Shown here one piece after another: positions 30,307 to 61,200 of a stretch of 64,000 bases of DNA; the stretch's first letter is position 1; each line of letters begins with the position of its first letter. A program made the position numbers and the translations under genes. The notes beneath the pieces were generated by a model, which did not search any database, was not told the origin of the DNA, and saw only the letters and a program-made list of their open reading frames with translations. Origin of the DNA: Microcoleus sp. FACHB-61 (lineage in GTDB: Bacteria; Cyanobacteriota; Cyanobacteriia; Cyanobacteriales; Microcoleaceae); assembly GCA_014695295.1 (NCBI GenBank), contig JACJNY010000013.1, positions 62,001 to 126,000 on the forward strand. Direction: 5' to 3'.

Positions 30307-31499
30307 TAAGCTGATACGCAGCTAGATTGTATAATATAAATATAAGATAAGCGATCATTAGTTATAATGTATGCCAGCCAAAAACCATCTATCTCAAAAT
30401 CAAAAACAGAGACTCATTAAACTATTAAAAGAGTCTGATGATAATTATGTGAGGGAAAAAGTTCTAATCTTATTGCTAATAAATGACGGAAAAACTTATC
30501 GAGAAATCAGTGAATTTATGGAGATTGCTTACACAACGGTAGCTTATTGGTCAGTTCATGGCGACCCAGATAATTTGGATAGTTTTTTAGATAAAAGAAG
30601 CCAAGGTAATTTTCGCAAAGTCACTCCAGAGTATGAAAAAATATTGATAGATACAATCGCTCAAGCTCCGGCAGAATATGGATATGAATTTGGGAGATGG
30701 ACGGCAGCCAGACTAGCAACATATTTAGAAAAAGTCACAAAAATTAAATTGAGTGGTTCCCAAATATCCAGGATACTACATAAAAAAAATACGTTTACAT
30801 TTGGGCTAAATATAGTTTAAAGGACAAACAAAATCCCGTTGAAAGAGAAGTATTTAAAGAGAAGCTATCCGAGTATTTAAAAATAACAAAACAAAGCCCA
30901 GAGCTTTTACAGGTATGGTTTTGGGACGAAAATGGATATAGAAGAGCGAGTGATAAGAAGAAAAACTTGGGGTAAAAAAGGTAGTCGAAAAAAAATCACA
31001 GGTCAAAGGAGAAGAGGCAGAGTAAATATCATGGGTGGATTGAGATATCATGACAAAAAAAGGTTAAATTTTGTAATAAAAAAAGGAGACTCGAATACGT
31101 TTTATGAGCAAATTAATGCCTTAAATGATTCGATAGTTCAAGAATGGAGAGAACTGGGTAATCAAGCTGAAAGTTTTGCCGAATCAGGAATAAAGATTGT
31201 AATTATTTTAGACAATGCTAGTTTTCATAAAAAGAAAGATATTCTGAGCCAAATATCAGCCGAAATGCCTCATATTATTTTAGAATTTTTGCCACCTTAC
31301 AGCCCCGATTATAATTTGATTGAATTGGTCTGGCATTCAGCGAAAGAATATATAGCACATCGACTGTTTAAGTCAGTAGAAGAATTGTCAAAATTACTAC
31401 ATAGATTATTAAATGAAGGAGAAATGGTTATCAAATGGGAGCGAAAAATCAAAAATAAAGGCAATGCTATTTTATCCGGTTTAGCTGCGTAGCAGCTTA
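30307..31499 (+). mobile_element. IS630-family insertion sequence with terminal inverted repeats
   Basis: The left end TAAGCTGATACGCAGCTA (30307-30324) is the reverse complement of TAGCTGCGTAGCAGCTTA (31482-31499) with one mismatch. Both ends carry the TA dinucleotide expected as the IS630/Tc1 target duplication. The element is about 1.19 kb and contains one transposase gene split by two frame changes. The transposase stop lies inside the right inverted repeat. The right end abuts a truncated IS4 transposase with no spacer. Confidence 0.85.
30371..31492 (+). pseudogene. IS630 transposase, frame-shifted
   Basis: The N-terminal part (30371-30820) is a helix-turn-helix protein: NDGKTYREISEFMEIAYTTV and WTAARLATYLEKVTKIKLSG. 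At a run of eight A (30783-30790) the logical continuation moves to the -1 frame (YVYIWAKYSLKDKQNPVERE, then LLQVWFWDENG with the first catalytic Asp). A second change near 30925-30935 returns to the original frame for RVIRRKTWGKKG, IILDNASFH (second Asp) and LPPYSPDYNLIELVW (Glu). The first shift sits on a slippery A tract, as in IS elements that make their transposase by programmed frameshifting. The second has no obvious slip site and is probably a disabling mutation. All three DDE residues are still encoded. Confidence 0.82.
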
Positions 31500-32299
31500 T
31501 TCCTTTATACTGCGAAATACTCCCCAAAAGAGGCAGCACGAATCTTCAAGAACAACAAAATTTAATTACACCTGTTTTGGACTTGCTACAAGATTATCAA
31601 ATAATTATTCTAGGCGGATGCGAGAATTTGGTTCTGTCAAGCTGGCGCAATGGCTCTGTGACGTAAGCGTCAAGTTTGTATTAAGAGTGAAACAAGAACG
31701 ATACATACAAGCTGAAAAATCCGAATATCAACGTCTAATTGAGTTAGGACTAATGCCAGGGACAGGCTTTTATAGAAGCGGGGTTAAAGTTACTAAACAA
31801 AAAGGTTTTGGCTTATTTGATGTAGCAGGTTATTGGAAAAGAAAGTACAGAAATAACGGGACTTCCGAAGGGTGGTATCTGTTGACTAATGTAGGTAGTT
31901 TAAAATTGGCGATCGCCAGTTTTAAGTGTCGGAGTGGAATAGAGGCTATGTTTAAGGATTGTAAGACAGGAGGTTATAACGAAAGAAAATAGTCATGCCT
32001 GTTATGACCGCTTAAAGTCATTAGTCTTGTTAATAGCGATCGCATACACTTGTGCAATAATTAAAGGTTGTACAATCAAACAGATGGGAATTCAAAAATA
32101 TGTGGGTCGGGTGCAGGAATTAGGGCGAACGGTACGTCGTCATAGCAACTTTTGGATAGGTTTATATGGTGAATGTTGGGTGACCGGAAGTGAAGTTTGC
32201 CAAGATTTAGTAACTAAATTAATGAGGATTAGAAGTAATAAGCGACCATTTTTTCAGAAGGGGATAAGGGCTAGAACCTTGATTATATCTACTCTTTGA
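31500..32299 (+). pseudogene. IS4-family transposase remnant, 5' truncated and frame-shifted
   Basis: Coding resemblance begins immediately at the right end of the IS630 element (LYCEILPKRGSTNLQEQQNL, then LDLLQDYQIIIL). A two-base insertion near 31616 breaks the LGDREF motif, after which REFGSVKLAQWLC and AGYWKRKYRNNGTSEGWYLL continue in another frame. FKCRSGIEAMFKDCKTGGYN carries the YREK-like acidic residue. A further shift near 31980 leads to LKSLVLLIAIAYTCAIIKGC and the C-terminus, ending at TGA 32297-32299. The N-terminal half with the first catalytic Asp is missing. A GACGGGGT/ACCCCGTC hairpin follows at 32298-32317. Confidence 0.82.
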
Positions 32300-33297: not shown

Positions 33298-34659
33298 ATG
33301 AGCTCAAAAGTTACCCTCACCATCACTTCCGGGAATCTCAAAGGCCGAGAATTTACCTTTGACACCCGCACAACTTGCATTATTGGCCGCGCCAAAGATT
33401 GCTATCCCAAGATTCCCGACGACGAAAAACACCGCACGATTTCCCGCTATCACTGCTTGCTGGATATCAATCCTCCCGATATCCGGGTGCGCGATTTCGG
33501 TAGCAAAAATGGCACTTTTGTTAATGGCAAAAAAATCGGTCAGCGAGAAGCTCATCAAACTCCCGAAGAAGCTGCTCAAATTCAATTCCCCGAATACGAC
33601 TTGCAAGGGGGAGATGAATTTACACTCAGCGATACTTCTTTTCGAGTTGGCGTTGCCCTTGACCCGGAAATTGTGAAAACTGCCGAACATCAAATACCCC
33701 CTGCCATTCCCTCAAATCAAGCAAATCGGTGGGAAATGCTCAAAGCTTTTCTGTTGAAAGCGGTGGCGAATGAAAGCAATATCGGAGTTCTCGGCGATTA
33801 CGTTTTGCTCAAAGAATTGGGTAGGGGAGGTTTTAGTTTAGTTTATTTGGCGCGCCACAAACAAACTAACGAACAAGTTGCGCTGAAAGTGATGCTGCCA
33901 AAAGTAGCGGCAAATCAGCGGGCTGTTAATTGGTTTTTGCGAGAAGTTGAAAATATGAAAGTTTTAAAACATCCCAATGTGGTAGGATTAAAAGAGTTTG
34001 GTTATGCTGATGAAACTTTCTTTTTCACGATGGAATACTGCGACGGCGGCAGCGTTATTGATTTGATGGAAAAACGCGGTTTCAGCACTTTGCCGGTTGG
34101 TGAGGCTGTGGCTATTATTTTGCAAGTTTTAGATGGTTTGACTTACACCCATAATGCAGAAATTCCAAACGTCAGATTGGCTGATGGTAGTTTTGCAAAA
34201 GGACGGGGTTTGATTCACCGGGATTTGAAACCGGGGAATATTTTTCTGGCGAATGTGGGTGGGAAACAAGTTGCCAAAATTGGGGATTATGGGTTAGCAA
34301 AGGCTTTTGACCAAGCGGGTTTAAGCGGCCAAACGATGACTGGTAATGTTGTGGGCACGCCGTATTTTATGCCGCGACAGCAGGTAGTAAATTATAAGTA
34401 CGCGCAACCGGATGTTGATGTTTGGGCGGCTGCGGCTTGTTTGTATGTGATGATAACGGGATATTCCCCGCGCAATTTGCAGGATCAAGACCCGTTTTTG
34501 GCGGTTTTGCAAAATGATGCGGTTCCTGTGCGCGATCGCACTTCTGCGATTCCTCAACCTTTAGCTGCTGCGATCGATCGCGCTTTAATTGACAATCCTG
34601 AAATTTATTATAAAAGTGCGGCGGAATTTAAACAAGCTTTATTAAATACTATATCATAA
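33298..34659 (+). CDS. FHA-domain Ser/Thr protein kinase
   Basis: The N-terminal FHA domain (about 5-118) has IIGRAKDCY at 28-36, SRYHC at 49-53 and DFGSKNGTFVNG at 66-77, so it should bind phosphothreonine. The kinase domain (166-453) has the glycine loop GRGGFS at 175-180, VALK with Lys 197, the alpha-C Glu 216, catalytic HRDLKPGN at 307-314 and DYG at 330-332 in place of DFG. GTPYFMPRQQVVNYKYAQPD is the activation segment end. It lacks a transmembrane segment and PASTA repeats, so it is cytosolic and senses through FHA. It may autophosphorylate and dock to its own products. A GH44 gene starts four bases after its stop. Confidence 0.93.
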   Translation: MSSKVTLTITSGNLKGREFTFDTRTTCIIGRAKDCYPKIPDDEKHRTISRYHCLLDINPPDIRVRDFGSKNGTFVNGKKIGQREAHQTPEEAAQIQFPEYDLQGGDEFTLSDTSFRVGVALDPEIVKTAEHQIPPAIPSNQANRWEMLKAFLLKAVANESNIGVLGDYVLLKELGRGGFSLVYLARHKQTNEQVALKVMLPKVAANQRAVNWFLREVENMKVLKHPNVVGLKEFGYADETFFFTMEYCDGGSVIDLMEKRGFSTLPVGEAVAIILQVLDGLTYTHNAEIPNVRLADGSFAKGRGLIHRDLKPGNIFLANVGGKQVAKIGDYGLAKAFDQAGLSGQTMTGNVVGTPYFMPRQQVVNYKYAQPDVDVWAAAACLYVMITGYSPRNLQDQDPFLAVLQNDAVPVRDRTSAIPQPLAAAIDRALIDNPEIYYKSAAEFKQALLNTIS

Positions 34660-41909: not shown

Positions 41910-44900
41910 TTATCTTTGTTTAGAAGCTAAAAGTTGTTGAATAGTGCTTGCCAATTGCTTCAGCTTGACGGGTTTGGTGAGGTAATCATTGGCTCCGGCG
42001 GCAAGGCAACGATCGCGATCGCCCGTCATGGCTAAGGCAGTTAGGGCAACGATCGGCAAATCGACTAAGTTTGGATCGCTGCGGATCTGCTGCATAGCTT
42101 CTAGACCATCCATACCAGGCATTTGAATGTCCATCAAAATTAGATTGGGGTTTTCCGACTTGGCCAGGGCGATCGCCTCCTCTCCATTCTTAGCCAAGAG
42201 AATGCGATAGCCTTTAGCTCTCAGGTAGCTCGAAATCGTAGTGATATTGGCTTCGTTGTCTTCCGCCAGCAAGATTAATGGAGAGCTTCCCGGTTCGGGT
42301 TCGCTGGGTTCGATGCTGGGATCTGTCTGGGATGCCAAGTCAGGAGAGGATGGCGCACAAGCAGTGCAGGGAAGGTCGATCGTGAAGCAACTTCCTACAC
42401 CCACAGTGCTGGTGAGCCCCACCTGCCCGCCGTGGAGTTCGACGATGCGTTTCACCAAGGCAAGCCCCAAGCCAGTGCCTGTATATTGACGATTCAGGGC
42501 GCCATCGATTTGGATAAAAGGCTGAAACAGTTTGTTGATATGTTTTGCGGCAATACCAATACCTGTATCGATGACCGCAATTTGCAGGGTTTCTTTGACC
42601 AAAAAATGGGGTGGGGAACCGGCAGAATCTGGGTCGGCAGGGCGCTGTTGACGGCGGACTTCTAGGGTGATGCGTCCTCCGTTAGGAGTGAATTTGACAG
42701 CGTTATTGAGCAGGTTGATCAAGACTTGGCGCATCCGCCGTTCATCAATCAATAAGGCGGGCAGATTGAGCGGCATTTGAATGTCTAGCTGAATGCGTTT
42801 TTGCAGGGCTTGTTGTTTGATAAATGCCATACTGGATTGACACAGATGATTGATAGAAACTGGGGTGCAATCGAGTTCCATTTGACCCGATTCAATTTTG
42901 GCGACATCCAAAATGTCGTTGATTAGCTCTAGCAAGTGAGAGCTACTGCGATCGATGGTTTGTAAAGCTTTGATTTGTTGTTCGTTGACGATGCCAAAGA
43001 CTTGCTCTTGTAGCCCCTCGCTCATGCCCAGAATGGCGTTAAGGGGAGTGCGGAGTTCGTGGCTCATGTTGGCAAGGAATTCGTCTTTGAGACGGGTAGC
43101 GCGGGCCAGTTCTTCGTTAGAGGCTCCTAGTTGTTGGTTGCGCTCGGTGAGCTGCTGCTGGGCTTGTTGTCGTTCGGTGAGTTCTTGCTGCAACTGCTTA
43201 AATAGGCTCGCTTGTTGAATTGCGATCGCCAACTGGTTGGCAATTTGTTGCAGGAGTTGCGCTTCAGACTCTTGCCACACTCGTTTTTCTCGACAAGCAT
43301 GGACGACTAACACCCCCCAGAGCTTCTTGGTTTGCCCGGGGGCAACCCATCTATGGTTTTCGCTGCTTCGGACTTCTTGCAAGATAGGTGCAACGATTTT
43401 GGACTGGACTTGACCAACGGTTGCGTATTCCACCAAGCAATGAGTCCAGATATCGGTCATTACATCGGGGACGATGCGGGGCTTGCCCTCCCAGTACCGG
43501 TTGAGGATTTCTTGAGACCACTGTTCGTCCTGCCAGTGATGGTCTTTGAGCGCGGGGAACTCGCTAGACACAGCTTCTTCAACAATTTGACTTCTGCCAT
43601 CCCCAAATAGCCGGAACACGATAATCCGATCGCCTTGCAAGATTTCTTTGACTTTCTGTGTCACAGTCGCCAAAATTTGGTTAATATCCAACGATTCGCG
43701 AATTTGCTGGGCGATTTCTCCCAAAGTTCGCTGCCGTTGGAGTTGTAAAGCGATCGCATTTTCTGTTTGCTTGCGGATAGCCAGTTCTGATTGTACCTGT
43801 TCGTAGAGGTAAGATTGCTGAATTGCGATCGCTAATTGGTTAGCAATTTGTTTAAGTAAATTGATTTCCCAGTCTTGCCACTGGCGCGGACCATCGCATT
43901 GATGAACAATCAGCAATCCCCAGAGGGTTTGATTCAGAATAATTGGAACTACGAGTTTGGCTCTGACTTGGATTTCTGCGAGGAATTCAACCAAGCAGGG
44001 AAAGATTGACTCGTTTACATCTTCGCTATCGTTGAGGGCATACACTCTTCCTTGGATATAGCGATCGTAGTTTTCTTGGGGGAAAACCTCTTCAGGGAAG
44101 AGGATATCCAGGAGCTTAGACCTATTTGGCGAAACAGATTCAGCAATGGCAGCCCCCGTCCCTTCAGGAAAAACTCGATAAACCAGCGTTCGGTCTGGTT
44201 GCAAGACCTGATGGATTTCCTCAACAGTGCTATTGAGAATCTCGTCGAGATTCAGAGAAGATCGCATCCGTTTAGTAATCGCTCCCAGCAAACGTTCCAG
44301 GTCTGTTCGTTGTCGCACTTTCTCTTCGGCTTCTTTGCGATCGGTGATATCCTGAAACGTGCCTACCAGACCAATAACATTATCTGAGCAGTCTCGCAGG
44401 GGAGCCTTGTGGGTTTCGATAAATAGTGCTTTACCATTGGGTAGGGTTAGGGTTTCTTCGAGCCCTAATATAGATTCACCCGTTTCTACTAACCACCGAT
44501 CGATCGCACGATAGCTGCTCACCTCGACTTTTTTCGGGCAAATATCTAAATCTGTTTTACCTATAATTTCGGTCGTAGATGGCAAGCTTAGAGTTTTGGC
44601 AAACTTCTGATTGCATCCTAAAAAAACAGACTCTCTATTCTTCCAAAACACGGCGAGCGGGATGGTATCGAGTACCGTTTGCAGAAACTGCTGAGATTCC
44701 TGCAAAGCCTTCTGGGCCTGTTTGCGATCGGTGATGTCTACTAATACACAAATAGTTTGATTCTCTGAGCCTGGAAGGAGTGCGACTCCGATCAAGACAG
44801 CAATCCGGCTGCCATCCTTACGGTAGTATTCCTTTTCCCAGGTCTCATCGGCCGCGCCATCCTGCATCAGGCGTTCCATCACTACAACATCAGCGTGGGC

Positions 44901-47900
44901 ATATTCGGGGGGGGTCATGGCATCCCAATGAATTAGCCCCGCCTCTAGTTCCTCCCTACTGTAGCCAACCATCTGTAAGAAGCGATCGTTGGCATCGATA
45001 ATGTTCCCCTGAAAATCGGCAAACATCATGCCGCTCACACTCGACTCAAACACCCGGCTGAATCTGATTTCACTGCTTTCCCTGGCGAGTTCAGCTTGTT
45101 TGCGATCGCTGATATCCGATAAAATTCCCTGGACGCTAATCAATTCCCCTTCAGCATTTATAACGGGTGTGGCGCTGCTTCTTACCCAGACATAATTGCC
45201 ATCTCGGCGGCGGTGTCGGAACTCATAATCACTTGACTTTTTACCAAGTTTCATATTCTCCCGATAATCAGTAACTACCAAAGAGCGATCGTCTGGATGC
45301 ACCAGATATATAAACGACTTACCAATCCATGCACTCTCATCCCAGCCAAACATGGTCTTGAATTGCGGTGACACATAAGTGAGTATGCCATCGGGTTCAC
45401 ATGACCAGATCAAATCATTAGCCCCTTCTACCAGCCGCCGGAATTTAGCTTCACTCTCTGCTAATTCGGCTTCGATCTGTTTGCGATAGCTCATATCGCG
45501 ACATACACAAATCAATAATCCATCGTCTGTGAGGGTGAGGGATAACCCTTCGGCAAAGGTAGAGCCATCTTTGCGGGTGGCGATCGCCTCTCCCTCCCAA
45601 GCGCGATCGCGCCCCAGCACCGGAAAGACTTCCCGCTCAAACCGTTCTAATTCCTGTTGGGAATACAAAAGTTTCCAAGATTTGCCCAACAGTTCTTCAG
45701 GGCGTTCGTAGCCAAACAGTTCTAAATGGGCTTGATTCAAATAGAGGTAGGTATCTCCTTCGATAATCGCAATGCCGTCGATCGCCGCCTCAATTGCCGC
45801 CTGTTGTATTTTTAGGGTTTCTTGGGTTTGTTTGACATTGCTAATATCGGCACAATAGCCAACAATCTCAGTCGGGCGACCTTGTTCATCTCGCACCAGG
45901 CGCCTTCCATCCTGTATCCAAACGTAGTAACCATCGCGATGCAAAAATCGATATTCATGCTGCTGAGTGTCGTACTCAAAGAGAGCCGATAGATCTGCCA
46001 AAACTCTAGGGGCATCTTCTGGGTGAAGATGGTGAGTCCAGAAGCTGGGGGTCGATACAACTTCTTTTGGCTTGTAGCCCAAAATGGCTTCGATATTTTT
46101 GCTGATGAAGGTTGAGTCATAGTCGGGATAGGGCTTAGAGCTATAGATCATCGCGGGACTGGATGCCAGAAGAAATTCGAGGCGTTCTTTCAACAGGCGA
46201 TTTTCTCGCTCTGTCTGTTGGCGATGGGTAATGTCTTGGATCAGGGCCAGCGCATAGAGATGTCCATCATCACACGATAGGATAGAGGTGGAAATGGAGA
46301 TAGTGCGCCGCTGTCCGTCTTGACGCTGGATTTCCCTTTCCACAGCGATCGGCTGCATCTGTCTGCAGTTGGCGATCGCCTGTTCTCGATCTTCTAGATT
46401 CGGGTACAAGGTTTGATACCACCCCAGACGGTTAATTTCTTCTAAGGTGTAACCCGTAATCTCTTGCATTTGCTGATTCCAGACTGTGAAGTGGACAAAG
46501 GGAAACTCCTTAACAGGATGGAAAACGCACAGCCCTTCTGCCATGTTTTCTACTATTTGTTGACGGAAAGTATTTTCCTGCCGAAGCGTTGCTTCGGCCA
46601 ACTTGCGATCGGTAATATCGAAGCGAATGGCTAGATACTGAAAAGGTCGCCCACCATCGTCCACAAAGGGGACGATGGTGGTTGCAACCCAGTACAGGCT
46701 ACCGTTTTTTGCCCGATTGCAAATTTCACCGCGCCAAATCTGACTGCTGTTAATGGTGCGCCACAAGTGTTGGAAGAAAGCAGGGGGATGATAGCCAGAG
46801 TTGACTATGCGATGGGTTTGTCCGATCAGTCGATCGCGGGAGTAGCCAGAGACTAAACAGAAGCGATCGTTGACGTAGGTCATCACCCCTTCGCGATCGG
46901 TTATGACCACAATGGCAGACTGATCCAAGGCCTGTTTAAAGGTTGATAATTCTTGAATTAACTGCTGTCGTTGGAGTTCAGCCTGTTTGCGTCTGCTGAT
47001 ATCAAAGTTGACCCCTATCATGCTGTGGGGATTGCCTTGGGCATCTCGCACGACGACACCATAGGCTTTAATAAAGCGGAGGCTGCCATCGGGATGCAAC
47101 ACTCGAAATTCGGTTTCGTATTCTGCCTGTCCTAAGACGGCTTGCTGAAGCAATGTTTCGGTGGCAGTGCGGTCTTCGGGATGTAGGCGGTTTGCCCAAA
47201 TGTGGTAAGGCAGAGGGGAATCAGATTGTTTTGTGACACCGTACAGTTCGTACATCCGCTCGTCCCAAATGACGGTGTTCTGTTCAATATCGAAGTCCCA
47301 ACAGCCGATCGCCCCTGATTTGAGAGACAAAGCGAGGCGATCTGATACTTTCTGTAGTTGCACTTGTGTACGTTTGCACTCGCTAATATCTTTGGCGATG
47401 CCTAAAAAGCCGATAATTTGCTGATTGACATCCTTGAGGGCGGTGATGGATAGCGACACAGGAAATCGAGAACCATCTTTGCGGATATAGCTCCACTCTT
47501 CTTCGCTGGCAATACCTTGGCGTGCTTTGGCAACAAAAACCTCAAAGCCGGGAGGAATATTTTGCCCTAGTTCGGCAGATAGTGATGCTGCCCGGTCAAT
47601 TACCTCATTTGCATCGTGGATGAGTGCGGGGGTGGCTTTGCCGATGATTTCTTGAGCACTGTAACCCAGCATCCTTTCGCCTGCGGCATTCAAGGTCTGG
47701 ATGATGCCAGTTGGGTCTGCGGAGACGATGGAGTAATCAGCACCATCAAGGATAGCGCGTTGCAGGCTGTTGACTTGCGAAAGCTCTTGGGTGCGTTCTG
47801 CGACTTTGGTTTCTAGCTGTTGGTTGAGTTGCTGGAGTTGTTGTTCGGCTTGTTTGCGATCGCTAATATCTGTCGTACTTCCTACATAGCCGACTACTTG

Positions 47901-50156
47901 CCCGTCTGCATCCAGTTCGGTAACGGACTGCCCATAAACCCACGTTACCCCACCGTCGGGACGTTGAAAGCGATATTCGAGTTGGAAAGGGCGATTTTCT
48001 TGGAGAGATTGCTGCCATTGGGCAATGACCCAATCGCGATCGTCGGGGTGTAGCCCCTGTTGCCATCCTTCCCCGACGGCGGTTTTTGGGGTGAGCCCGC
48101 TGATCTGACACCAGCGATAGTTAACATAGATGCACTTGCCCACAGCATTGGCGCGGAAAATCCCCACTGGTACGGCTGCCACTAGGGAGGCGTAGCGTTC
48201 TTCGCTTTCTTGCAGGCGGACTTCAGTTCGTTTGCGATCGCTAATGTCGGTAATGGTGCCTATATAGCCGCTCCGATGTCCGCTGGCATCGAGTTCGGCG
48301 ACGCACTGGCCATAAACCCACGTTACCCCACCGTCGGGACGTTGAAAGCGATATTCGAGTTCAAAAGAGTCGTTACCTTGGATGAATTGCTCCCATCGGG
48401 CAATGACCCAATCGCGATCGTCGGGGTGTATTCCTTGTTGCCATCCCTGTCCCATAGTGGCTTCTGGTCTGAGTCCGCCGATCTGAAAGTAGCGATCGTT
48501 GACATAGGTGCATAGCCCCTCCGCATCGGTGCGAAAAATCCCCACCGGAGCGGCGGCAGCAAGGGCCGCGTAGCGTTCTTCGCTCTCGATCAGGGTGGCT
48601 TCGATCCGCTTTCGCTTTACCAGTTCATTCTGCAATTTTTGCTGGATCGTGTCTTGCCCGAGGGCGATCGCCACCTGTAGAGAAACTTGTCGCAGGAGTT
48701 CGATCTCGTCAGCCGTCCAAGAGTGCGCAGCGGCTCGATAACTGGCGATCATTAATCCGCGCAGTTGTTCCTCTATCACGATCGGCACCATCAGCTTGGC
48801 GCGAATATCAAACCCCCCTAACATTTCCTGATGGCACTGGGTCATTTCTTCGCCGTAGATGTCGTTGATGATGCGAATTCTGCCCTGGCGATACGGTTCA
48901 AGCCATTCTGGACTCATGCAAGAATCGCGGGCTTCTCTATGGAGTACCGATCGCCCAGTTTCGGTAATCGCTTCCGCAATCACGGTGCCTCTAAAGTCAG
49001 GCCGAAACTGGTAAATGATGACGCGATCGCACCCCAGAAGCGAGTGAATTTCGTGCACTGTAGTATGCAGAATATCTGACAAATTCAAGGACGAGCGGAT
49101 CTGCTCGGCAATGGTATTGAGAAGTTGCTCTCGATCGGCCTTTGCTTTGAGGGCGACTGTCCGAGCTTGCACCTGCTGTTCGAGCTCGATGTTGCGATTT
49201 GCCAGCAGCGCCACCTTTTCGGCCTCTAGGCGCACCACCTTCTCTTCCCACTTCTGGACCAGTTTGTATACCTCCAGCGGGTTGAGGGCTTGCAGCAAAC
49301 TGGTCTGGGTGATGATGCCTAATAGTTCTCCTAGCTCCCCTGTCACCGCCAACCGACGGATCGATCGCTGCTCCAGGATCTGCTGCACAGTCCAGAGCGA
49401 CTCCTCTGGCTTGACCTTAAAAATCGGTGCACTCATTACCGTCTCAGCCAGACAGGTTTCCAGCTTCAACCCCAATGTCTGAAATTGCACAATATCCCGC
49501 TCGGTGAGAATCCCCACTGGAATTTGTAGCGGTTCAGTAGAGATTCCGCCTGGGTGTACAATCATCACGGAACTGACGCGATGCTCTGCCATAAGTTGAG
49601 CGATCGTCAGTAGGGAAGAATCTGGCGCAGCACAAATCACTTCGCGAGTCATCACTTCTGCTACCATACGCAACCGCAGCAGGTCGATCGGTCGAGAGGT
49701 TTGGCGCAGACTTCCGTGAGTCACTAAGCCCACTAGGCGATCGTGCTCGTCCACGATGGGCAAATGGCGAATGTGGTGCTGCTGGAGCAGATTAATCGCA
49801 AAAAATAAATCGGTGAAGGCGGACTCGCGGAGGGTGACGACGGGATATGCCATCACATCCCGGATCGCCAAATTCTCCAAGGAACGCTGCTGGGCACTCA
49901 GCCGCACCACGTCTCGCTCGGTCAGTACGCCGACCAATTGCTCGTTTTCCACTACCAACACGCAGCTCGATCGCGCCTCTAGGTGGAGGTCGTCGAGTTG
50001 ACCATCCGCCGTTCTAGGGGTGTTGCAGAGCGATCGCACGCCGCTCATTTGGGCGATCGCATCCATCACCGTCGTATCGAGCGAAACCACCAACGGGTGT
50101 CGGATGATCGCAGTCCTGAGTTCTATTGGGGTGAGAGCCGTAATACCGCTGAACAT
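41910..50156 (-). CDS. giant hybrid sensor kinase: CBS x4, GAF, PAS x11, GAF x2, HisKA-HATPase, receiver
   Basis: At 2748 residues this is the largest gene here. Domains in order: four CBS units (about 8-300; VGVLTERDVV, VGLVTHGSLR, VGILTERDIV, LGIITQTSLL) that may bind adenine nucleotides; coiled coil (300-345); GAF1 (345-505); eleven PAS units (about 523-1945), each ending in a DI(S/T)xRK-type motif; GAF2 (1950-2120); GAF3 (2141-2320); HisKA with MSHELRTPLNAILG (His 2366); HATPase (about 2465-2600; DTGIGIA, GTGLGLALVKRIVELHGG); receiver with phospho-Asp 2676. GAF1 looks like a cyanobacteriochrome: CH at 441-442 after NDIYGEEMTQ, and a DxCF-like DSCM with Cys 413. GAF2 and GAF3 have Cys-Leu (2054, 2240) at that place. 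PAS1 and PAS2 are a recent tandem duplication. No membrane segment is visible. It heads an operon with two receiver-kinases. Confidence 0.92.
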   Translation of the reverse strand: MFSGITALTPIELRTAIIRHPLVVSLDTTVMDAIAQMSGVRSLCNTPRTADGQLDDLHLEARSSCVLVVENEQLVGVLTERDVVRLSAQQRSLENLAIRDVMAYPVVTLRESAFTDLFFAINLLQQHHIRHLPIVDEHDRLVGLVTHGSLRQTSRPIDLLRLRMVAEVMTREVICAAPDSSLLTIAQLMAEHRVSSVMIVHPGGISTEPLQIPVGILTERDIVQFQTLGLKLETCLAETVMSAPIFKVKPEESLWTVQQILEQRSIRRLAVTGELGELLGIITQTSLLQALNPLEVYKLVQKWEEKVVRLEAEKVALLANRNIELEQQVQARTVALKAKADREQLLNTIAEQIRSSLNLSDILHTTVHEIHSLLGCDRVIIYQFRPDFRGTVIAEAITETGRSVLHREARDSCMSPEWLEPYRQGRIRIINDIYGEEMTQCHQEMLGGFDIRAKLMVPIVIEEQLRGLMIASYRAAAHSWTADEIELLRQVSLQVAIALGQDTIQQKLQNELVKRKRIEATLIESEERYAALAAAAPVGIFRTDAEGLCTYVNDRYFQIGGLRPEATMGQGWQQGIHPDDRDWVIARWEQFIQGNDSFELEYRFQRPDGGVTWVYGQCVAELDASGHRSGYIGTITDISDRKRTEVRLQESEERYASLVAAVPVGIFRANAVGKCIYVNYRWCQISGLTPKTAVGEGWQQGLHPDDRDWVIAQWQQSLQENRPFQLEYRFQRPDGGVTWVYGQSVTELDADGQVVGYVGSTTDISDRKQAEQQLQQLNQQLETKVAERTQELSQVNSLQRAILDGADYSIVSADPTGIIQTLNAAGERMLGYSAQEIIGKATPALIHDANEVIDRAASLSAELGQNIPPGFEVFVAKARQGIASEEEWSYIRKDGSRFPVSLSITALKDVNQQIIGFLGIAKDISECKRTQVQLQKVSDRLALSLKSGAIGCWDFDIEQNTVIWDERMYELYGVTKQSDSPLPYHIWANRLHPEDRTATETLLQQAVLGQAEYETEFRVLHPDGSLRFIKAYGVVVRDAQGNPHSMIGVNFDISRRKQAELQRQQLIQELSTFKQALDQSAIVVITDREGVMTYVNDRFCLVSGYSRDRLIGQTHRIVNSGYHPPAFFQHLWRTINSSQIWRGEICNRAKNGSLYWVATTIVPFVDDGGRPFQYLAIRFDITDRKLAEATLRQENTFRQQIVENMAEGLCVFHPVKEFPFVHFTVWNQQMQEITGYTLEEINRLGWYQTLYPNLEDREQAIANCRQMQPIAVEREIQRQDGQRRTISISTSILSCDDGHLYALALIQDITHRQQTERENRLLKERLEFLLASSPAMIYSSKPYPDYDSTFISKNIEAILGYKPKEVVSTPSFWTHHLHPEDAPRVLADLSALFEYDTQQHEYRFLHRDGYYVWIQDGRRLVRDEQGRPTEIVGYCADISNVKQTQETLKIQQAAIEAAIDGIAIIEGDTYLYLNQAHLELFGYERPEELLGKSWKLLYSQQELERFEREVFPVLGRDRAWEGEAIATRKDGSTFAEGLSLTLTDDGLLICVCRDMSYRKQIEAELAESEAKFRRLVEGANDLIWSCEPDGILTYVSPQFKTMFGWDESAWIGKSFIYLVHPDDRSLVVTDYRENMKLGKKSSDYEFRHRRRDGNYVWVRSSATPVINAEGELISVQGILSDISDRKQAELARESSEIRFSRVFESSVSGMMFADFQGNIIDANDRFLQMVGYSREELEAGLIHWDAMTPPEYAHADVVVMERLMQDGAADETWEKEYYRKDGSRIAVLIGVALLPGSENQTICVLVDITDRKQAQKALQESQQFLQTVLDTIPLAVFWKNRESVFLGCNQKFAKTLSLPSTTEIIGKTDLDICPKKVEVSSYRAIDRWLVETGESILGLEETLTLPNGKALFIETHKAPLRDCSDNVIGLVGTFQDITDRKEAEEKVRQRTDLERLLGAITKRMRSSLNLDEILNSTVEEIHQVLQPDRTLVYRVFPEGTGAAIAESVSPNRSKLLDILFPEEVFPQENYDRYIQGRVYALNDSEDVNESIFPCLVEFLAEIQVRAKLVVPIILNQTLWGLLIVHQCDGPRQWQDWEINLLKQIANQLAIAIQQSYLYEQVQSELAIRKQTENAIALQLQRQRTLGEIAQQIRESLDINQILATVTQKVKEILQGDRIIVFRLFGDGRSQIVEEAVSSEFPALKDHHWQDEQWSQEILNRYWEGKPRIVPDVMTDIWTHCLVEYATVGQVQSKIVAPILQEVRSSENHRWVAPGQTKKLWGVLVVHACREKRVWQESEAQLLQQIANQLAIAIQQASLFKQLQQELTERQQAQQQLTERNQQLGASNEELARATRLKDEFLANMSHELRTPLNAILGMSEGLQEQVFGIVNEQQIKALQTIDRSSSHLLELINDILDVAKIESGQMELDCTPVSINHLCQSSMAFIKQQALQKRIQLDIQMPLNLPALLIDERRMRQVLINLLNNAVKFTPNGGRITLEVRRQQRPADPDSAGSPPHFLVKETLQIAVIDTGIGIAAKHINKLFQPFIQIDGALNRQYTGTGLGLALVKRIVELHGGQVGLTSTVGVGSCFTIDLPCTACAPSSPDLASQTDPSIEPSEPEPGSSPLILLAEDNEANITTISSYLRAKGYRILLAKNGEEAIALAKSENPNLILMDIQMPGMDGLEAMQQIRSDPNLVDLPIVALTALAMTGDRDRCLAAGANDYLTKPVKLKQLASTIQQLLASKQR

Positions 50157-55943: not shown

Positions 55944-57083
55944 TTAGTGATATAAAAACTGTAAAATTGTTTTGGCAATACCTTGTGCAGCCAAATAAGG
56001 AACCCCATTGCCAACAGTTTTAAACATATTAGTCAACGTCATCTTAGCGGGCAGTGCAAACTCTTTTGGCAGTGACTGAATAGCCAGTGTTTCTGCAACA
56101 GAAAGCCGGCGAACTTTGTAAGGGTGCAAGTGAACTTCGTTATTGCCGTAACAAGCTGTCGGGGAATAACGCCACCGGTGCAATCGCTTGAAAGATTTTT
56201 TTGAATCATCTCCTTCATCAACGGAACCAAACCGCTTAATGCCAGCTTTTGGTGTGAAATAGTGTTTGGCATTGGGATGGTTGAGAACGTCATTTTTTTG
56301 GAACCAAAATTCAACAGTTAAATCTTGGGGAATGCCATCAGGACAAGGCACGAAACCATCATCTGCAAAGGCTGTTCTCTCAGGCCAAGGATGAGAAAAA
56401 ATTTCTGATTTGGGATATAATACCTGACTTTGCCAAGGAAATAAACTTTCGGCTAACATTGGGCTTTTTTCCTCTAGGGAAATGCCCAGATTTTTGACAA
56501 GGTTTTTTCTAAGTCCAATCAAAATAATTCTATCCCTATCTTGCGGAACCCCGTATTCTATCGCATTAATTAAACGTTCGGCAAAAACGTATCCCGAATC
56601 AGCCAACTGATGTTTTAGTTGACCGTAAAAAGCTTTATGTTTCTTGGTTCTCCACAAACCTTTGACATTTTCAAATAAAAAGAAATCTGGCTGCTGCTGA
56701 CAAATCAATTCAATGTATGAAGCTGAAAGTTGACCTTTATCTCCTTCCCCACCCCGGTTTTTGCCACCAATAGAAAAGTCAGGACAAGGCGGCCCCGCGA
56801 TAAATCCCACAATATCGTGATGCTTGCGGGCATCCTGCATCAATTCGCGCAGGCGAAAAGCTGGTTCTCCCCCTACAAGTCGAGTTACATCTGCTTCCTC
56901 TCCTTCGCAATATCCGTATTCTGGTAGCGGCAAATTCATGCAGTGCCGAGAATAGCGGTATGCTTGCATGAAAGGTGGGAAAATTTCATTGACATACGCT
57001 ACATTAAAGCCGATCGACTCAAAACCCAGATCGAGCAAGCCTGAACCTGAAAAAAATGAGAAAATACAAGGAGGAGGGTGCAT
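55944..57083 (-). CDS. DNA (cytosine-5) methyltransferase, solitary
   Basis: This 379-residue C5-MTase has motif I IFSFFSGSGLLDLGFES (SAM binding, 7-23), motif IV GPPCPDFS with catalytic Cys 100, motif VI FFLFENVKG, and motif VIII YGVPQDRDRIILIGL. Motif IX/X is RRLSVAETLAIQSLP with TVGNGVPYLAAQ. The target-recognition region (about 220-310) is unlike any family I can name. Motif IV has PPCPDFS where PPCQxFS is usual. No restriction endonuclease, specificity subunit or Vsr gene is nearby (the nearest genes are miaB and a membrane protein), so it looks like an orphan methyltransferase. Its target cannot be read from sequence. Start ATG 57083, with GGAGGAG at 57071-57076 on the opposite strand, not a ribosome site. 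Confidence 0.92.
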   Translation of the reverse strand: MHPPPCIFSFFSGSGLLDLGFESIGFNVAYVNEIFPPFMQAYRYSRHCMNLPLPEYGYCEGEEADVTRLVGGEPAFRLRELMQDARKHHDIVGFIAGPPCPDFSIGGKNRGGEGDKGQLSASYIELICQQQPDFFLFENVKGLWRTKKHKAFYGQLKHQLADSGYVFAERLINAIEYGVPQDRDRIILIGLRKNLVKNLGISLEEKSPMLAESLFPWQSQVLYPKSEIFSHPWPERTAFADDGFVPCPDGIPQDLTVEFWFQKNDVLNHPNAKHYFTPKAGIKRFGSVDEGDDSKKSFKRLHRWRYSPTACYGNNEVHLHPYKVRRLSVAETLAIQSLPKEFALPAKMTLTNMFKTVGNGVPYLAAQGIAKTILQFLYH

Positions 57084-57270: not shown

Positions 57271-57699
57271 TTACAACCATTGACCGCCTCGGAAACGCCA
57301 GTATGGAAAGAAAATCCGCATCAGTGTTTGGGATGCCAGATAAATAGCCAGCCACACTAAACTATAATGCAAAGCAAAAGCTCCCAAGTCCAAATCTTGT
57401 GCAGGTATCCCCGGCAAACCGATAACTTTGATTAAAAATAACACAAAAAGCGCTTCCCAAATCCCAGCCAGCAATTGAAACGCGCCGGGCCAATCTCGAT
57501 CCCAGCGGAACTGCTGAATGTAAATATATAAGGCATCCCAGCCGATGCCAAAAATCGCTACATACCCTAAAATCCAGAAAAAGACTGAGCCTGATTGGGA
57601 GGTAATTAAACCCAGAAAAAAGGGCAGCGTTACTAAAGCGCCTACGGTTGCAAATAGCAATAACCGAGTTTGCCAGCGGCCGAATAAGGTGGGGGTCAT
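57271..57699 (-). CDS. conserved four-helix membrane protein, unknown function
   Basis: The 142-residue protein has four hydrophobic segments: LLLFATVGALVTLPFFLGLI, GSVFFWILGYVAIFGIGWDA, AGIWEALFVLFLIKVIGLPG and FALHYSLVWLAIYLASQTLM. The short loop QQFRWDRDWPGAFQLL and the C-terminal FFPYWRFRGGQWL are aromatic- and basic-rich. I recognise it as a cyanobacterial conserved membrane protein but know no function. It is flanked by the methyltransferase (same strand, downstream) and 80-bp repeats upstream. There is no ribosome site strong enough to prove the start. Confidence 0.75.
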   Translation of the reverse strand: MTPTLFGRWQTRLLLFATVGALVTLPFFLGLITSQSGSVFFWILGYVAIFGIGWDALYIYIQQFRWDRDWPGAFQLLAGIWEALFVLFLIKVIGLPGIPAQDLDLGAFALHYSLVWLAIYLASQTLMRIFFPYWRFRGGQWL

Positions 57700-57704
57700 T
57701 CGAT

Positions 57705-57885
57705 TTTAGATTTTAGATTTTAGATTTTAGATTGAATAGGAAGGTTGTTTGGCTAGTCGAAGGCTTGGATTTTAGATTTTAGATTTGGGATTTTACATTT
57801 TAGGTTTTAGATTGAATGTGAAGGTTGTTTGGCTAGTCGAAGCCTTGGATTTGAGATTTTAGATTTGGGATTTTACATTGAAGGC
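57705..57885. repeat. GATTTTA heptamers and an 80-bp direct repeat
   Basis: Consecutive TTTTAGA heptamers (57708-57733) run into two copies of an 80-bp unit (57731-57810 and 57811-57885). Each has ATTGAATxxGAAGGTTGTTTG, GCTAGTCGAAGxCTTGG, then more heptamer-like TTTTAGATTTGGGATTTTAC. A GTTCCACAAAGAGTGAGTTT element at about 57950-57969 is related to the one at 30270-30290. Confidence 0.85.
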
Positions 57886-58085: not shown

Positions 58086-60089
58086 TTAGCCGGGAGATTT
58101 ATTAAAAATCCACTTCAACCACTGCACGAACGATCGCCAAACGCTCAATTTCCGCACACCAGCAACTCTGTTGGCGGCCAGACTTTCAACCGATCGCAAG
58201 GCGGCGTATTGCAAGCCCAAAAAACTGTCTACCGGCGCGTAAGGCCCCCCCAAAGTAATCGCGCCGGCTGCGTATACCCGGCCTTCTGTGTTGCTAGCAG
58301 AAGTGTTGCACAATTCGGGCACTTCAAAATCCTTATTAACGCTCAGCCGCCCCAAACCGTTGAGGGGAAGATTGTATTGAACTACCAAATCGTTTAATAG
58401 GGGACTGGTTTTTACCTTAGCGTCCAAACCCGTAGCGTCAATAATAAAATCAGCCTCTAACTTAATTTGCCCCTTGAGTTCCTTCTCCTGAATGTACGTC
58501 ACCGTGCGGTTTTGACTGTCGCGCTCGACTCGCTCGACTTCCCCGAAGGTAATTTGATACCATCCTTGACTTAAACCTTCTTTGACAATCCGCCGCCAGT
58601 CGCTGCGCTTGGCTGTAGTAGTGCCGCCCCAGTCTGTGAGCAACTGCGGGCGAAACTCGGGGGCGGCTTGTTCCAAAAGTACGCGGAGTTCCCCACCCCA
58701 GCAAGCTTTCGGCCAGTTGAAAGGTTGAAATTCGTAGTGATTTTCGACGCTGCGCTCAGCGAGTTTAAATTTGTTACCTTGAGGTTTGGGCGATCGCATC
58801 AAATGCAATACTTGAATGTTGCGGTTCCGCTGTCGCGCTTCGTAAATTCGCTGCACCACCCTCGAAGCCACAATTCCCCGGCCTCTAATTAACACGCTGC
58901 CGCCCCTGGCCTCCAATTTTTCGTAAACGCCGTCGTGGCTTTCGTAAGCGTTGACAACCGACTCAAAATCCTGGGTTTTTTCGCGGTAAGCTTGCAAGTC
59001 GGGCAAAAATTGAATGGCGGGATAGCCGGTGGCTAAGTGTACGTATTTGGCGATTAAAAAAGCGTGATCGCGGTGATCCGCATTCGATCGAGAATAAGCG
59101 ATCGCGTACCTGCCGTCATCTGTTTTGCGAATTCCCCGCACTCTACCGTAGCGAAACATCTGATTCCACCCAATTCGATCGACTTCCCTGTCAATAGAAT
59201 CAAACACATTCCCCGCGCGAGGCGTATAAGTTTCGGCAAAAGTCGGTTCAGCAAACACCTGCCACATCAACATCAGTGATACTCCCAACCGCCCTTTGAG
59301 CAATTCCTGCCAAGCTTCCCGCAAAGCATAGGGAGGCCATCCCCAAATGTTGTCTGGACAAGAGTCAGAATTCGATCGTAGGCGTTCCCGCAGCGGAATT
59401 TGAGAATTCAGGCACAAACGCAGGTAGCGGGCGTAAGGCTGGCTTTCCATGCCCAAAACACCAATTCGATCTGTTTTCACACCGCAAATTCTCAGCAAAT
59501 CCACCCAAATAAAGCTGCCCAAACCGCCGCCAACTGCCGCCCAATCCACTTCTGCCACAGGGAGTCCCATAGATTGGATCGATCGCATTGAGACTTGAGA
59601 AGCTTGCAAAAATGCGATCGGCGGAAATTCTCCCCTACTAGCTGTTTGAGGAAGCTGCAACATTATTTGCTGCCCTAATGCGGGGTCTGGCCCATTGGTC
59701 TGGGGGTTAAAGAAAATGTGAGAATTGAGCGACGGCGTTTCTGGGGAATTCACAGCAAAAGAAATGCCGATCGCGTAGGGCCCAACTTGCAGCATATCCC
59801 CGTTTGCCAGCACGCAACGGGTTTGGCGAATGCCGTTAACAAAAGTACCGTTGCGGCTGCCCGTGTCAGTGAGTAGAATACTGTTGCCTTCGGTGCCAAT
59901 CACTGCGTGAAAGCGAGAAACTTGACTGCTGCTGAGGGCAATTCGAGAAACTCGTTCCCCGTTGATTGTGGCCGGCATAGCTTCAAAAATTCGTCCCAAA
60001 GCGATGGGTAAGTCGAGTATCGGGGAGCGACAATCCCCCGTAGCTGTATCTGTCCAAGTCAGTCGCAGGCGCAAGGGTTGAGAATTCAT
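58086..60089 (-). CDS. FHA domain fused to FAD-dependent oxidoreductase-like domain
   Basis: Residues 1-115 are an FHA domain (IALSSSQVSRFHAVIGTEGN; DTGSRNGTFVNG at 75-86). From 180 onward lies a flavoprotein fold: AAVGGGLGSFIWVDLLRICG, with GGGLGS at 187-192 as the dinucleotide-binding turn; SVLIRGRGIVASRVVQRIYE, a second Rossmann glycine motif; DFIIDATGLDAKV; and VYAAGAITLGGPYAPVDSFLG near the C-terminus. The order resembles flavin monooxygenase / FAD-NAD(P)-binding (pfam13454-like) proteins. An FHA fused to such an enzyme suggests recruitment to a phosphothreonine partner. Its substrate is unknown. It is co-directional with another FHA gene 104 bp upstream, and they may form an operon. The start MNSQPLRLRLTWTD is the first domain strand. 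Confidence 0.85.
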   Translation of the reverse strand: MNSQPLRLRLTWTDTATGDCRSPILDLPIALGRIFEAMPATINGERVSRIALSSSQVSRFHAVIGTEGNSILLTDTGSRNGTFVNGIRQTRCVLANGDMLQVGPYAIGISFAVNSPETPSLNSHIFFNPQTNGPDPALGQQIMLQLPQTASRGEFPPIAFLQASQVSMRSIQSMGLPVAEVDWAAVGGGLGSFIWVDLLRICGVKTDRIGVLGMESQPYARYLRLCLNSQIPLRERLRSNSDSCPDNIWGWPPYALREAWQELLKGRLGVSLMLMWQVFAEPTFAETYTPRAGNVFDSIDREVDRIGWNQMFRYGRVRGIRKTDDGRYAIAYSRSNADHRDHAFLIAKYVHLATGYPAIQFLPDLQAYREKTQDFESVVNAYESHDGVYEKLEARGGSVLIRGRGIVASRVVQRIYEARQRNRNIQVLHLMRSPKPQGNKFKLAERSVENHYEFQPFNWPKACWGGELRVLLEQAAPEFRPQLLTDWGGTTTAKRSDWRRIVKEGLSQGWYQITFGEVERVERDSQNRTVTYIQEKELKGQIKLEADFIIDATGLDAKVKTSPLLNDLVVQYNLPLNGLGRLSVNKDFEVPELCNTSASNTEGRVYAAGAITLGGPYAPVDSFLGLQYAALRSVESLAANRVAGVRKLSVWRSFVQWLKWIFNKSPG

Positions 60090-60193
60090 GATTATTTTTT
60101 AAACATCAGCAGTCGGCTTTGAGCTTTCTGCAAAAAAGATTTTTGAATTTGAGAGTGTTTAGCGGATACCCTGATTTTCCCTTTTTCAAACTT

Positions 60194-60724
60194 TCACGGA
60201 GAGATCATCACGCTCGCCGCCGCCGCCAAAGAAGTACCGCACCACGGACACCCCGCATTCAACTGCGCGTAAGGCGAAATTCGGTTGCACTTGGGACACT
60301 GCAAACCGTAGCTTGAAGGCCCCGTCGGCGGGGAAGAACTTTCAACCGGAGGCCCGGACAGCAAAACAGTCAGCGGCGCGGCTACCTCTACCTCCGCTAC
60401 CTTCACCACCTCGATTTGCACTTGGCCTAAATGGATGCGGCTTCCCGAGTTCAATTTCGCTTCGCCTCGGGCGAGAATTTTTCCGTCTACCAGCGGCGGA
60501 TTGCTTTCGCGCAAATTCCGCACTGCATACTCCTGCAATTCTTGATTAAAAAATATTTCAACGTGCAGACCCGATACGCTGGGATGCGAAAATACTATAT
60601 CGCACTTCGCCGGATCGCGCCCGATCCTCACGGTTCCGGGATTTTTGGTCGGCAGTCCGTTTTCAATTGTCTGAGTTTGACGCACTCCAGCCTCTGTCCA
60701 TGCTAAAGTGAGCTGGCTTGTCAT
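60194..60724 (-). CDS. FHA-domain protein with C-terminal zinc ribbon
   Basis: The 176-residue product from ATG 60724 begins MTSQLTLAWTEAGVRQTQTI, closely parallel to the start of the next FHA gene (LRLTWTD). The FHA core shows GTVRIGRDPAKCDIVFSHPS and VSGLHVEIFF, with the glycine loop replaced by LRESNPPLVDGK where NGTFVNG is usual. The conserved SxxH is present. After a proline/serine linker, CPKCNRISPYAQLNAGCPWC is a four-Cys zinc ribbon. The open frame runs to 60949, but its upstream part is low-quality sequence. It may be an adaptor for the FAD-FHA protein downstream. The terminator at 60863-60888 separates it from the KGG gene. Confidence 0.85.
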   Translation of the reverse strand: MTSQLTLAWTEAGVRQTQTIENGLPTKNPGTVRIGRDPAKCDIVFSHPSVSGLHVEIFFNQELQEYAVRNLRESNPPLVDGKILARGEAKLNSGSRIHLGQVQIEVVKVAEVEVAAPLTVLLSGPPVESSSPPTGPSSYGLQCPKCNRISPYAQLNAGCPWCGTSLAAAASVMISP

Positions 60725-61200
60725 GATTCTATAGTTGTGCTGACACTGTGGAAAAATATTAGCTGATTTATTTTGAGGACGGACTTCCTCACTAAAAAAC
60801 TTAATTAGAATTATTGACGCGGACTCGATCGAACTTCTGAAAATACTATGTGCAGCAAAACAAAAAAGCCCCGACTTCGGGGCTTTTTGTGCTCGTATTG
60901 GCTTTTTTTGAGAGACTGACTCGCGCTTGCCAGCTTTTGTTTCCCACAAAATTATTGACCCCAGTGCACCTTTGTTAAAATTTTGCTGTTAAAGATTGAG
61001 CAGCGATTACTAAAAACTAATTGGTGTGGGGTTTCCAGATTTGCGAAGCTTTGGGGCGCTAGTGACGAATTTTGGAAGTTGGGCCACCGAACTATCTCGG
61101 GAAATTCGATCGCCCCACCTCCTCAAATGCTCAGTGTCCTAGTGCTATCTCTCAAGCTGCAACTTTGTAATCTTTCGTTGCAGAGCCAGCCGTGAGAGAT
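60725..61200. other. spacer between FHA-zinc ribbon gene and KGG gene
   Basis: It contains one strong hairpin (60863-60888) and otherwise AT-rich sequence. The open frame at 60983-61195 (top strand) is unlike known proteins and I do not call it. The promoter of the two FHA genes is expected near 60725-60860. Confidence 0.5.
60863..60888. terminator. intrinsic terminator (AAAAAGCCCCG stem)
   Basis: An 11-bp stem (60863-60873 with 60878-60888), GC-rich at the loop side, has a four-base loop ACTT and T runs on each flank. It is 313 bp past the KGG stop on the minus strand and upstream of the FHA pair. It can insulate the FHA operon from upstream transcription. Confidence 0.8.

Follow-up and report, generated by a model that had tools for sequence, protein, structure and literature searches.

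Among described FHA proteins, zeaxanthin epoxidase combines a single-Rossmann, hydroxylase-type flavin adenine dinucleotide (FAD) domain (PF01494) with an FHA domain at its C end, FraH of Anabaena joins a zinc ribbon at its N end to an FHA domain at its C end, and GarA and OdhI are stand-alone FHA proteins that control metabolic enzymes by phosphorylation. Here we describe a gene group on the minus strand of a 64,000-nucleotide stretch of Microcoleus sp. FACHB-61 (contig JACJNY010000013.1, positions 62,001 to 126,000; the whole stretch is called the window, and coordinates count from its first letter), in which a gene for an FHA domain fused to a flavoprotein-like domain (the FHA-flavoprotein) lies between a gene for a four-helix membrane protein (TM4) and a gene for an FHA-zinc ribbon protein. 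In zeaxanthin epoxidase of plants and algae, an FAD-dependent monooxygenase and an FHA domain share one chain (PMC11429058), and phosphorylation is one of the regulators proposed for it (PMC12570779); the phosphothreonine (pThr) contact motif of FHA domains is defined as GR/SxxH/NG (PMC1262709). Searches of open-licence PMC full text turned up neither a cyanobacterial FHA-flavoprotein fusion nor a flavoprotein-TM4 module.

Compared with these systems, zeaxanthin epoxidase provides a known precedent for an FHA-flavin fusion, but the window protein has two predicted dinucleotide-binding domains, an N-terminal FHA domain, no PF01494 match and a membrane partner. With SidA, PvdA, DfoA and class B flavin monooxygenases it shares a predicted fold over ~370 residues and a GxGLG-type first motif (compare the N-hydroxylase L167), whereas the flavoprotein lacks a Pfam match, its NADPH and ATG motifs and substrate region differ, and FHA and TM4 are additional. 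The FHA-zinc ribbon protein has both domains of FraH in reversed order (going by the description of FraH); in contrast to GarA and OdhI, whose FHA profiles are among the closest of solved structure, the reader is here fused to an enzyme-like domain; and cyanobacterial FHA-serine/threonine (Ser/Thr) kinases, which have the same GR/SxxH/NG residues (PMC1262709), differ in phosphorylating proteins. We posit that the locus encodes the cyanobacterial form of a membrane redox system that is as yet uncharacterised, made up of two proteins, flavoprotein plus TM4, and placed or switched through pThr recognition, an explanation with about as good a chance of being right as wrong. More tentatively, and with somewhat less than an even chance, this would be a new two-protein membrane redox system of Cyanobacteria and one actinomycete, which in cyanobacteria came under kinase control through the FHA fusion and the FHA-zinc ribbon protein.

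Co-occurrence of the flavoprotein and TM4

The gene group consists of the following minus-strand genes:

57271..57699, minus strand: TM4 gene, a predicted four-helix membrane protein of 142 residues, near-obligate partner of the flavoprotein, without a Pfam family above threshold
58086..60089, minus strand: FHA-flavoprotein gene, 667 residues, with relatives in 47 of 292 cyanobacterial genomes, its own included
60194..60724, minus strand: FHA-zinc ribbon gene, 176 residues, ATG at 60724; 41 of 50 flavoprotein copies have it upstream in the same orientation

All three genes, and HetR, were scored in one sample of 292 cyanobacterial genomes, which holds 50 flavoprotein copies in 47 carrier genomes (G000 being the window's own, a 6.62-Mb cyanobacterial genome with 14 FHA matches in total). 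TM4 was found in 46 genomes, every one of them a flavoprotein carrier; the flavoprotein stood alone in a single draft genome (G278), TM4 alone in none, and neither was present in 245 (Fisher p 4e-53, a value that ignores phylogeny). The TM4 gap in G278 is likely a shared loss or an assembly gap, since this draft also has no close match to the hydrolase that neighbours TM4 in the three other genomes sampled from the genus. Flavoprotein presence is mixed within genera g11, g12, g15 and g27 and within several families, with TM4 tracking it each time, and three genomes (G174, G255 and G284) encode two flavoproteins and two TM4s each. Pairwise distances of the two proteins correlate (r 0.88 over 42 pairs), a value to which shared ancestry contributes and from which it was not removed.

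Gene order is likewise recurrent. TM4 lies within 6 kb of 39 of the 50 flavoprotein copies, downstream and on the same strand in 37 of these, and the two genes overlap by 4 nucleotides in G058 and G083; clade-I TM4 genes more than 8 kb away or on another contig occur in G068, G125, G157, G167, G172, G174, G195, G197, G255 and G262. In a neighbourhood survey of 40 copies (10.8-19.5 kb of DNA each, 731 kb in all), no gene other than that for the FHA-zinc ribbon protein recurred as often as TM4 (~142 residues); the FHA-zinc ribbon gene itself stands within 2.5 kb upstream of 41 of the 50 copies. Loci from named organisms, taken as the best 80 of 395 relatives in one-per-species genomes, all have cyanobacterial titles, from Microcoleus, Tychonema, Nostoc and Calothrix to Gloeocapsopsis crepidinum (of a unicellular genus), the nearest relative among the matches listed being Microcoleus vaginatus HSN003 (95% identical; the own genome was possibly left out of this list). 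TM4 was found at 42 of these 80 loci, as judged within the locus DNA and with the window's own TM4 as the only query, and the FHA-zinc ribbon gene at 75, the five others comprising four with less than 1 kb of upstream DNA and one true miss (L107).

The FHA-zinc ribbon query matches 44 of the 292 genomes; three of these are non-carriers, and in carrier G087 the match is unlinked and goes no further than the FHA domain. On the flavoprotein tree, from which L066 was left out, the eight copies lacking this gene form one side of a 100/100 branch and are nested among copies with it; because they share this branch, one loss suffices provided that the root lies outside the eight.

Outside cyanobacteria, a search of a plasmid collection returned a single match, in Nonomuraea gerenzanensis (NZ_LT559118.1, an 11.85-Mb record labelled plasmid); it covers 93% of the query at 38.5% identity (E 1e-95). 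The Nonomuraea flavoprotein frame has 505 residues, starts just ahead of the flavoprotein domain and is FHA-free, since it gives no Pfam match at all; RSxS...PDN, GTTT and DSFLG, conserved in the cyanobacterial proteins, are also present. It overlaps a TM4 homologue by 4 nucleotides (TTGA, with TGA as the flavoprotein stop and TTG as the TM4-homologue start, the latter assigned by homology), which is 40% identical to the window TM4 and keeps GR-QTR, W-x11-WD-DWP, E82, R128, R135 and GG. Neither of the two flanking genes, one upstream with DUF4253 and one downstream with a methyltransferase domain, encodes an FHA protein. Because this linked pair is FHA-free, the conserved unit appears to be flavoprotein plus TM4, with FHA most simply a cyanobacterial addition, loss in Nonomuraea being the alternative for this one genome; together with the near-obligate TM4, the pair suggests that the phospho-reading parts are a layer of control added later. 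Among viral contigs, nine pattern matches included no relative, and a PHROGs search with three proteins gave no match.

The earlier note on this DNA had seen a possible small phospho-dependent redox module in the FHA genes of the window. Two conserved FHA genes remain of that proposal; a link to the kinase that it included is not supported, and the near-obligate TM4 at 57271-57699 had been missed. The flavoprotein-TM4 pairing is more interesting than the FHA pair noted first.

Fold and motifs of the two core proteins

The flavoprotein-like part of the fusion contains these features:

58149..59561, minus strand: predicted two-dinucleotide-binding flavoprotein domain, residues 177-647 (AlphaFold2 model, Foldseek and VIA-align)
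59514..59531, minus strand: first Rossmann glycine motif GGGLGS, residues 187-192, putative FAD site (pattern in 38 of 38 homologues)
58863..58886, minus strand: second Rossmann motif RGRGIVAS, residues 402-409, putative nicotinamide adenine dinucleotide (phosphate) (NAD(P)H) site (pattern in 37 of 38 homologues)
58425..58439, minus strand: DATGL, residues 551-555, at the place of the N-hydroxylase (L/F)ATGY (placed by eye against the N-hydroxylase L167)

Structurally, the domain is predicted to adopt a two-dinucleotide-binding fold of the flavin-monooxygenase/N-hydroxylase type with two Rossmann beta-alpha-beta units. The AlphaFold2 model of the FHA-flavoprotein (38 sequences; mean predicted local distance difference test (pLDDT) 77.3, predicted template-modelling score (pTM) 0.68) sets the first motif between strand 178-187 and helix 190-201 and the second between strand 397-402 and helix 406-421. 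Its best Foldseek matches by E-value were ornithine N-hydroxylases (SidA, E 4.5e-16, 15% identity), and VIA-align superposed it on the bacillithiol disulfide reductase YpdA (Z 21.0, root-mean-square deviation (rmsd) 3.0 over 311 residues), on PvdA (Z 20.5, rmsd 3.4 over 369, model residues 178-643) and, with Z ~20 over 369-381 residues, on PvdA, DfoA and SsDesB. The fusion of FHA to a flavoenzyme fold, as the earlier note had it, is borne out by the PF00498 match and this predicted two-Rossmann structure.

Motif statistics come from an alignment of the same number of homologues (38), in which G[AG]G[LMI]G[SN] occurs in all, RGxGIVAS in 37 and, at the ATG position after the second Rossmann unit, D[ACS]TGL in 37; more than 120 columns are invariant, many of them outside the nucleotide sites. 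N-hydroxylating monooxygenases carry D(x3)(L/F)ATGY and GxGxSA, each found in 0 of the 38, and PF13434 (Lys_Orn_oxgnase) was matched by none at E up to 1, nor was PF01494 by any. The CxxC redox pair of TrxR-type thiol-disulfide reductases was likewise absent (0/38). PMC9960948 describes the flavin-containing monooxygenase (FMO) fingerprint FxGxxHxxY/F and an ATGY motif: the former, searched with a slightly looser pattern, was found in 0 of 38 homologues, whereas ATGY is present in 27, and the window protein has it at residues 353-356, ahead of its second Rossmann unit. Since the structure matches but these fingerprints are absent, the protein has a predicted flavoprotein fold, yet by motif falls outside the N-hydroxylase and FMO families.

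Profile searches agree in leaving the domain on its own. Pfam and NCBIfam gave no match in the ~530 residues beyond FHA, so that the ~500-residue flavoprotein-like domain has no Pfam family; sub-threshold FAD_oxidored matches occurred in 14 of 38 homologues (best E 0.033; 15 families matched at E up to 1), and a flavoprotein profile from which FHA had been cut drew no PDB match up to E 10. A candidate relative is a 417-residue cyanobacterial FAD/NAD(P) family (L169/L192; Pfam Lys_Orn_oxgnase, E 8.6e-17), which, unlike the window flavoprotein, has no FHA in the 402-residue query. Their profiles align collinearly end to end over 385 columns (single-comparison E 0.009, HHalign probability 4.5%), and in the same comparison two genuine N-hydroxylases (E 0.17, 86 columns) and an FMO-like set (E 0.039, 43 columns) fared worse; this kinship is suggestive only. 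A copy of this 417-residue family at G000:C46:7781-8913 is apparently broken into two pieces, one with an internal stop.

TM4 is modelled as four long helices (pLDDT 83.0, pTM 0.76), with Lys/Arg at positions 8, 12, 65, 68, 91, 128, 135 and 137; in our reading of the model, all of these except K91 fall on one side of the predicted four-helix layout. Its 49 homologues share GRWQ-R, WD--Y, WD-DWP, E82, R128, R135 and GG.

Several side observations concern these two genes. Between them, window positions 57702-57879 hold GATTTTA-type tandem repeats with periods of 7, 14 and 80. At L066, the second copy in G255 (contig C1), a 735-residue frame starts as an FHA-flavoprotein, breaks off behind the second Rossmann unit and continues in frame as TM4; a deletion within a duplicated copy is the probable cause. 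Relocated TM4 genes at L223 and L224 (genus g3: G255, G157), and not at L226, directly follow ABC transporter genes that look polyamine-type by eye. In the divergent clade (L057-L062, L064 and L066), a small lipoprotein-like gene with a YHS-domain match below cut-off stands beside the flavoprotein or TM4 gene.

FHA domains, zinc ribbon and upstream signals

The phospho-reading parts and the signals upstream are as follows:

59781..59951, minus strand: FHA domain of the FHA-flavoprotein, residues 47-103 by Pfam (PF00498, E 3.2e-13)
60425..60631, minus strand: FHA domain of the zinc-ribbon protein, residues 32-100 (PF00498, E 2.5e-13)
60239..60298, minus strand: zinc ribbon, C143-x2-C ... C159-x2-C162 (sequence and 31-row alignment)
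60726..60754, minus strand: promoter-like site directly 5' of the FHA-zinc ribbon ATG (consensus match; regional count 8 against 4.2 expected)
60863..60888, minus strand: terminator-like hairpin of 11 pairs (6 G-C) between a KGG-repeat gene and this gene group (hairpin scan)

PF00498 scores 50.3 and 50.7 bits in the two FHA proteins, against a curated cut-off of 20.7. The earlier note had made its proposal depend on FHA residues fit for pThr and on conservation of the neighbours together. In the FHA-flavoprotein, G32, R33, S58, H61 and N85 are invariant and N80 and G81 kept in at least 90% of the homologues, and in the FHA-zinc ribbon protein G35, R36, S51, H54, N70 and N75 are kept in 31 of 31 rows (row L067 being the window's own gene again); the kept GR, SxxH and N residues of both families support pThr competence of both window domains. 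Both genes lie co-directionally on the minus strand as that note had placed them, and their pairing goes beyond chance, with the order recurring in the copies and named loci counted above. Its 'parallel' FHA starts hold in position and fail in sequence, a blastp comparison of the two FHA domains giving no match. By profile, the solved structures nearest to the FHA part of the flavoprotein are the uncharacterised mycobacterial Mb1858 (E 6e-10) and Rv1827/GarA and OdhI (E 1.6e-9 to 5e-9); the linker that follows, residues 113-155, is variable among the homologues.

Of the zinc-ribbon cysteines, C143 and C159 are constant across all 31 rows, and C162 is kept in 97%. The partner of C143 falls below 90% and is absent in several divergent-clade rows, so the ribbon may be incomplete in some members, mainly of that clade. 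No minus-strand terminator-like site was seen between the FHA-zinc ribbon and flavoprotein genes.

The FHA kinase and other neighbours

The three FHA genes in ~27 kb reported earlier were recovered, with matches at 33379, 59781 and 60425. A third FHA gene nearby is unremarkable (~9% by rough estimate), because the genome has 14 FHA matches. The tie to the FHA kinase at 33298 fell away: of 13 carrier genomes, four have full-length relatives, namely G000 itself, G039, G195 and G255 (47%). The relative lies ~232 kb from the module in G255 and on a different contig from it in G039 and G195, both drafts; single-contig G099 has only a 49-residue kinase fragment ~40 kb from it. This kinase is not a conserved part of the module. 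Transposase-like frames (by eye) at window positions 30371-31992 end ~1.3 kb before it, and farther on, at 41910-50156, stands a 2748-residue frame that by eye resembles a multi-sensor hybrid histidine kinase; two shorter receiver/histidine-kinase-like frames come after it.

Other candidate partners were set aside. Kinase linkage through neighbour family 4, of the divergent clade, was discarded on finding by eye that this family merged kinases with trypsin-like and WD40 proteins. A GDSL/SGNH hydrolase, found beside TM4 in many Nostocaceae-type loci even where TM4 is relocated, is present in 117 of the 292 genomes, most of them without the module, and was dropped as a specific partner. Among the 80 named loci, an EndoV gene neighbours 63 and a C5-cytosine methyltransferase (window 55944-57083) 21, of which 15 are close (74-93% identity, near the window's own group) and six are weak matches (25-28%) to other methyltransferases. 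No biosynthetic cluster was seen by eye among the recurring neighbours. HetR is present in 64 genomes, including 43 of the 47 carriers; with 21 HetR genomes lacking the module and four carriers lacking HetR, the module as a strict multicellularity gene was rejected.

Proposed mechanism and alternative explanations

In the system that we propose, the core would pair TM4 with a soluble flavoprotein that uses NAD(P)H, has a fold of the flavin-monooxygenase/N-hydroxylase type and works on the cytoplasmic side of the membrane. The charged motifs of TM4, GRWQTR at the N terminus, WDRDWP in the middle loop and R...WRFRGG at the C terminus, would be cytoplasmic by the positive-inside rule, and TM4 may act as dock, substrate gate or electron acceptor, docking the flavoprotein and presenting or accepting a membrane-resident substrate or electrons. 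The FHA domain of the flavoprotein and the FHA-zinc ribbon protein would recognise pThr marks set by Ser/Thr kinases whose genes lie elsewhere, such that the enzyme is placed or switched. Computation supplies the architecture, the predicted fold, the kept pThr and glycine residues, the operon-like arrangement of linked genes, the joint occurrence of flavoprotein and TM4 and the Nonomuraea pair without FHA; for this flavoprotein-TM4 system, we infer FAD and NAD(P)H binding, catalysis, topology, docking and pThr dependence.

Several results weigh against this proposal. Its evidence beyond cyanobacteria comes from one genome, and the co-occurrence allows for phylogeny only in so far as genera and families with and without the genes were noted. 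The flavoprotein gave no profile match to any flavoprotein family above threshold, and the FMO, N-hydroxylase and N-hydroxylase NADPH fingerprints are all missing (0/38 each); model loops are of low confidence in the conserved 239-249 region, and the sole invariant Cys, C244, is Arg in the Nonomuraea homologue. A PDB search with TM4 gave no fold match, Foldseek reaching E 5.9 at best and VIA-align Z 5.3 (rmsd 7.5 over 93 residues), and promoter- and terminator-like sites are no more than two standard deviations away from their numbers in shuffled sequence. Nor does any kinase show consistent linkage: the 731 kb surveyed hold 10 (blastp) or 11 (motif) kinase open reading frames from few independent loci, against a roughly estimated background of one per 200 kb, and because the sensitivities of count and background differ, we do not claim kinase linkage.

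The clustering of three FHA genes within 27 kb could be taken to mean that they form one pathway, with the FHA kinase at 33298 acting on the other two by phosphorylation or recruitment, as the earlier note suggested, and PMC1262709 does record cyanobacterial FHA-kinase fusions with GR/SxxH/NG motifs; with full-length kinase relatives in 4 of 13 carriers, those outside the own genome ~232 kb from the module or on another contig, and other kinases plentiful in the own genome (45 kinase-query matches, in a range of 18 to 45 per genome over 13 genomes), we regard this as very improbable. The FHA domain might instead act within or between the protein's own copies, by phosphorylation-dependent autoinhibition as in OdhI and GarA, rather than as a recruiter. 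Mb1858, Rv1827/GarA and OdhI being the nearest solved FHA domains speaks for such a mode and the variable linker 113-155 against it (no search for a conserved Thr site was made), which leaves it unlikely in our view.

The enzyme-like domain invites two further readings. Ornithine N-hydroxylases as the best Foldseek matches, with Z ~20 to PvdA, DfoA and SsDesB, would suit a true N-hydroxylating monooxygenase of a specialised-metabolite pathway whose FHA serves only for oligomerisation; set against that are the unmatched Lys_Orn_oxgnase profile and absent D(x3)(L/F)ATGY and GxGxSA in the 38 homologues, the near-constant membrane partner and the lack of a biosynthetic cluster by eye, and we consider it quite unlikely. 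A non-catalytic flavin/NAD(P)H sensor or scaffold, relaying redox state to pThr signalling at the membrane, would account for the reader-domain fusion, the missing CxxC (0/38) and a substrate region unlike known enzymes, but the more than 120 invariant columns, partly kept in FHA-free Nonomuraea, look more like an active site than a scaffold, so that we give this possibility a small chance.

Biological meaning

If the proposed two-protein membrane redox system is real, it would be novel, a direct phospho-to-redox switch at the cyanobacterial membrane. Cyanobacteria can encode dozens of Ser/Thr kinases, few of which, to our knowledge, have known outputs, and here an enzyme-like protein carries a built-in pThr reader. 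The Nonomuraea pair offers an FHA-free core for comparison, which makes the effect of the phospho-reading layer directly addressable, and the constant TM4 partner makes genetics and pull-downs straightforward.

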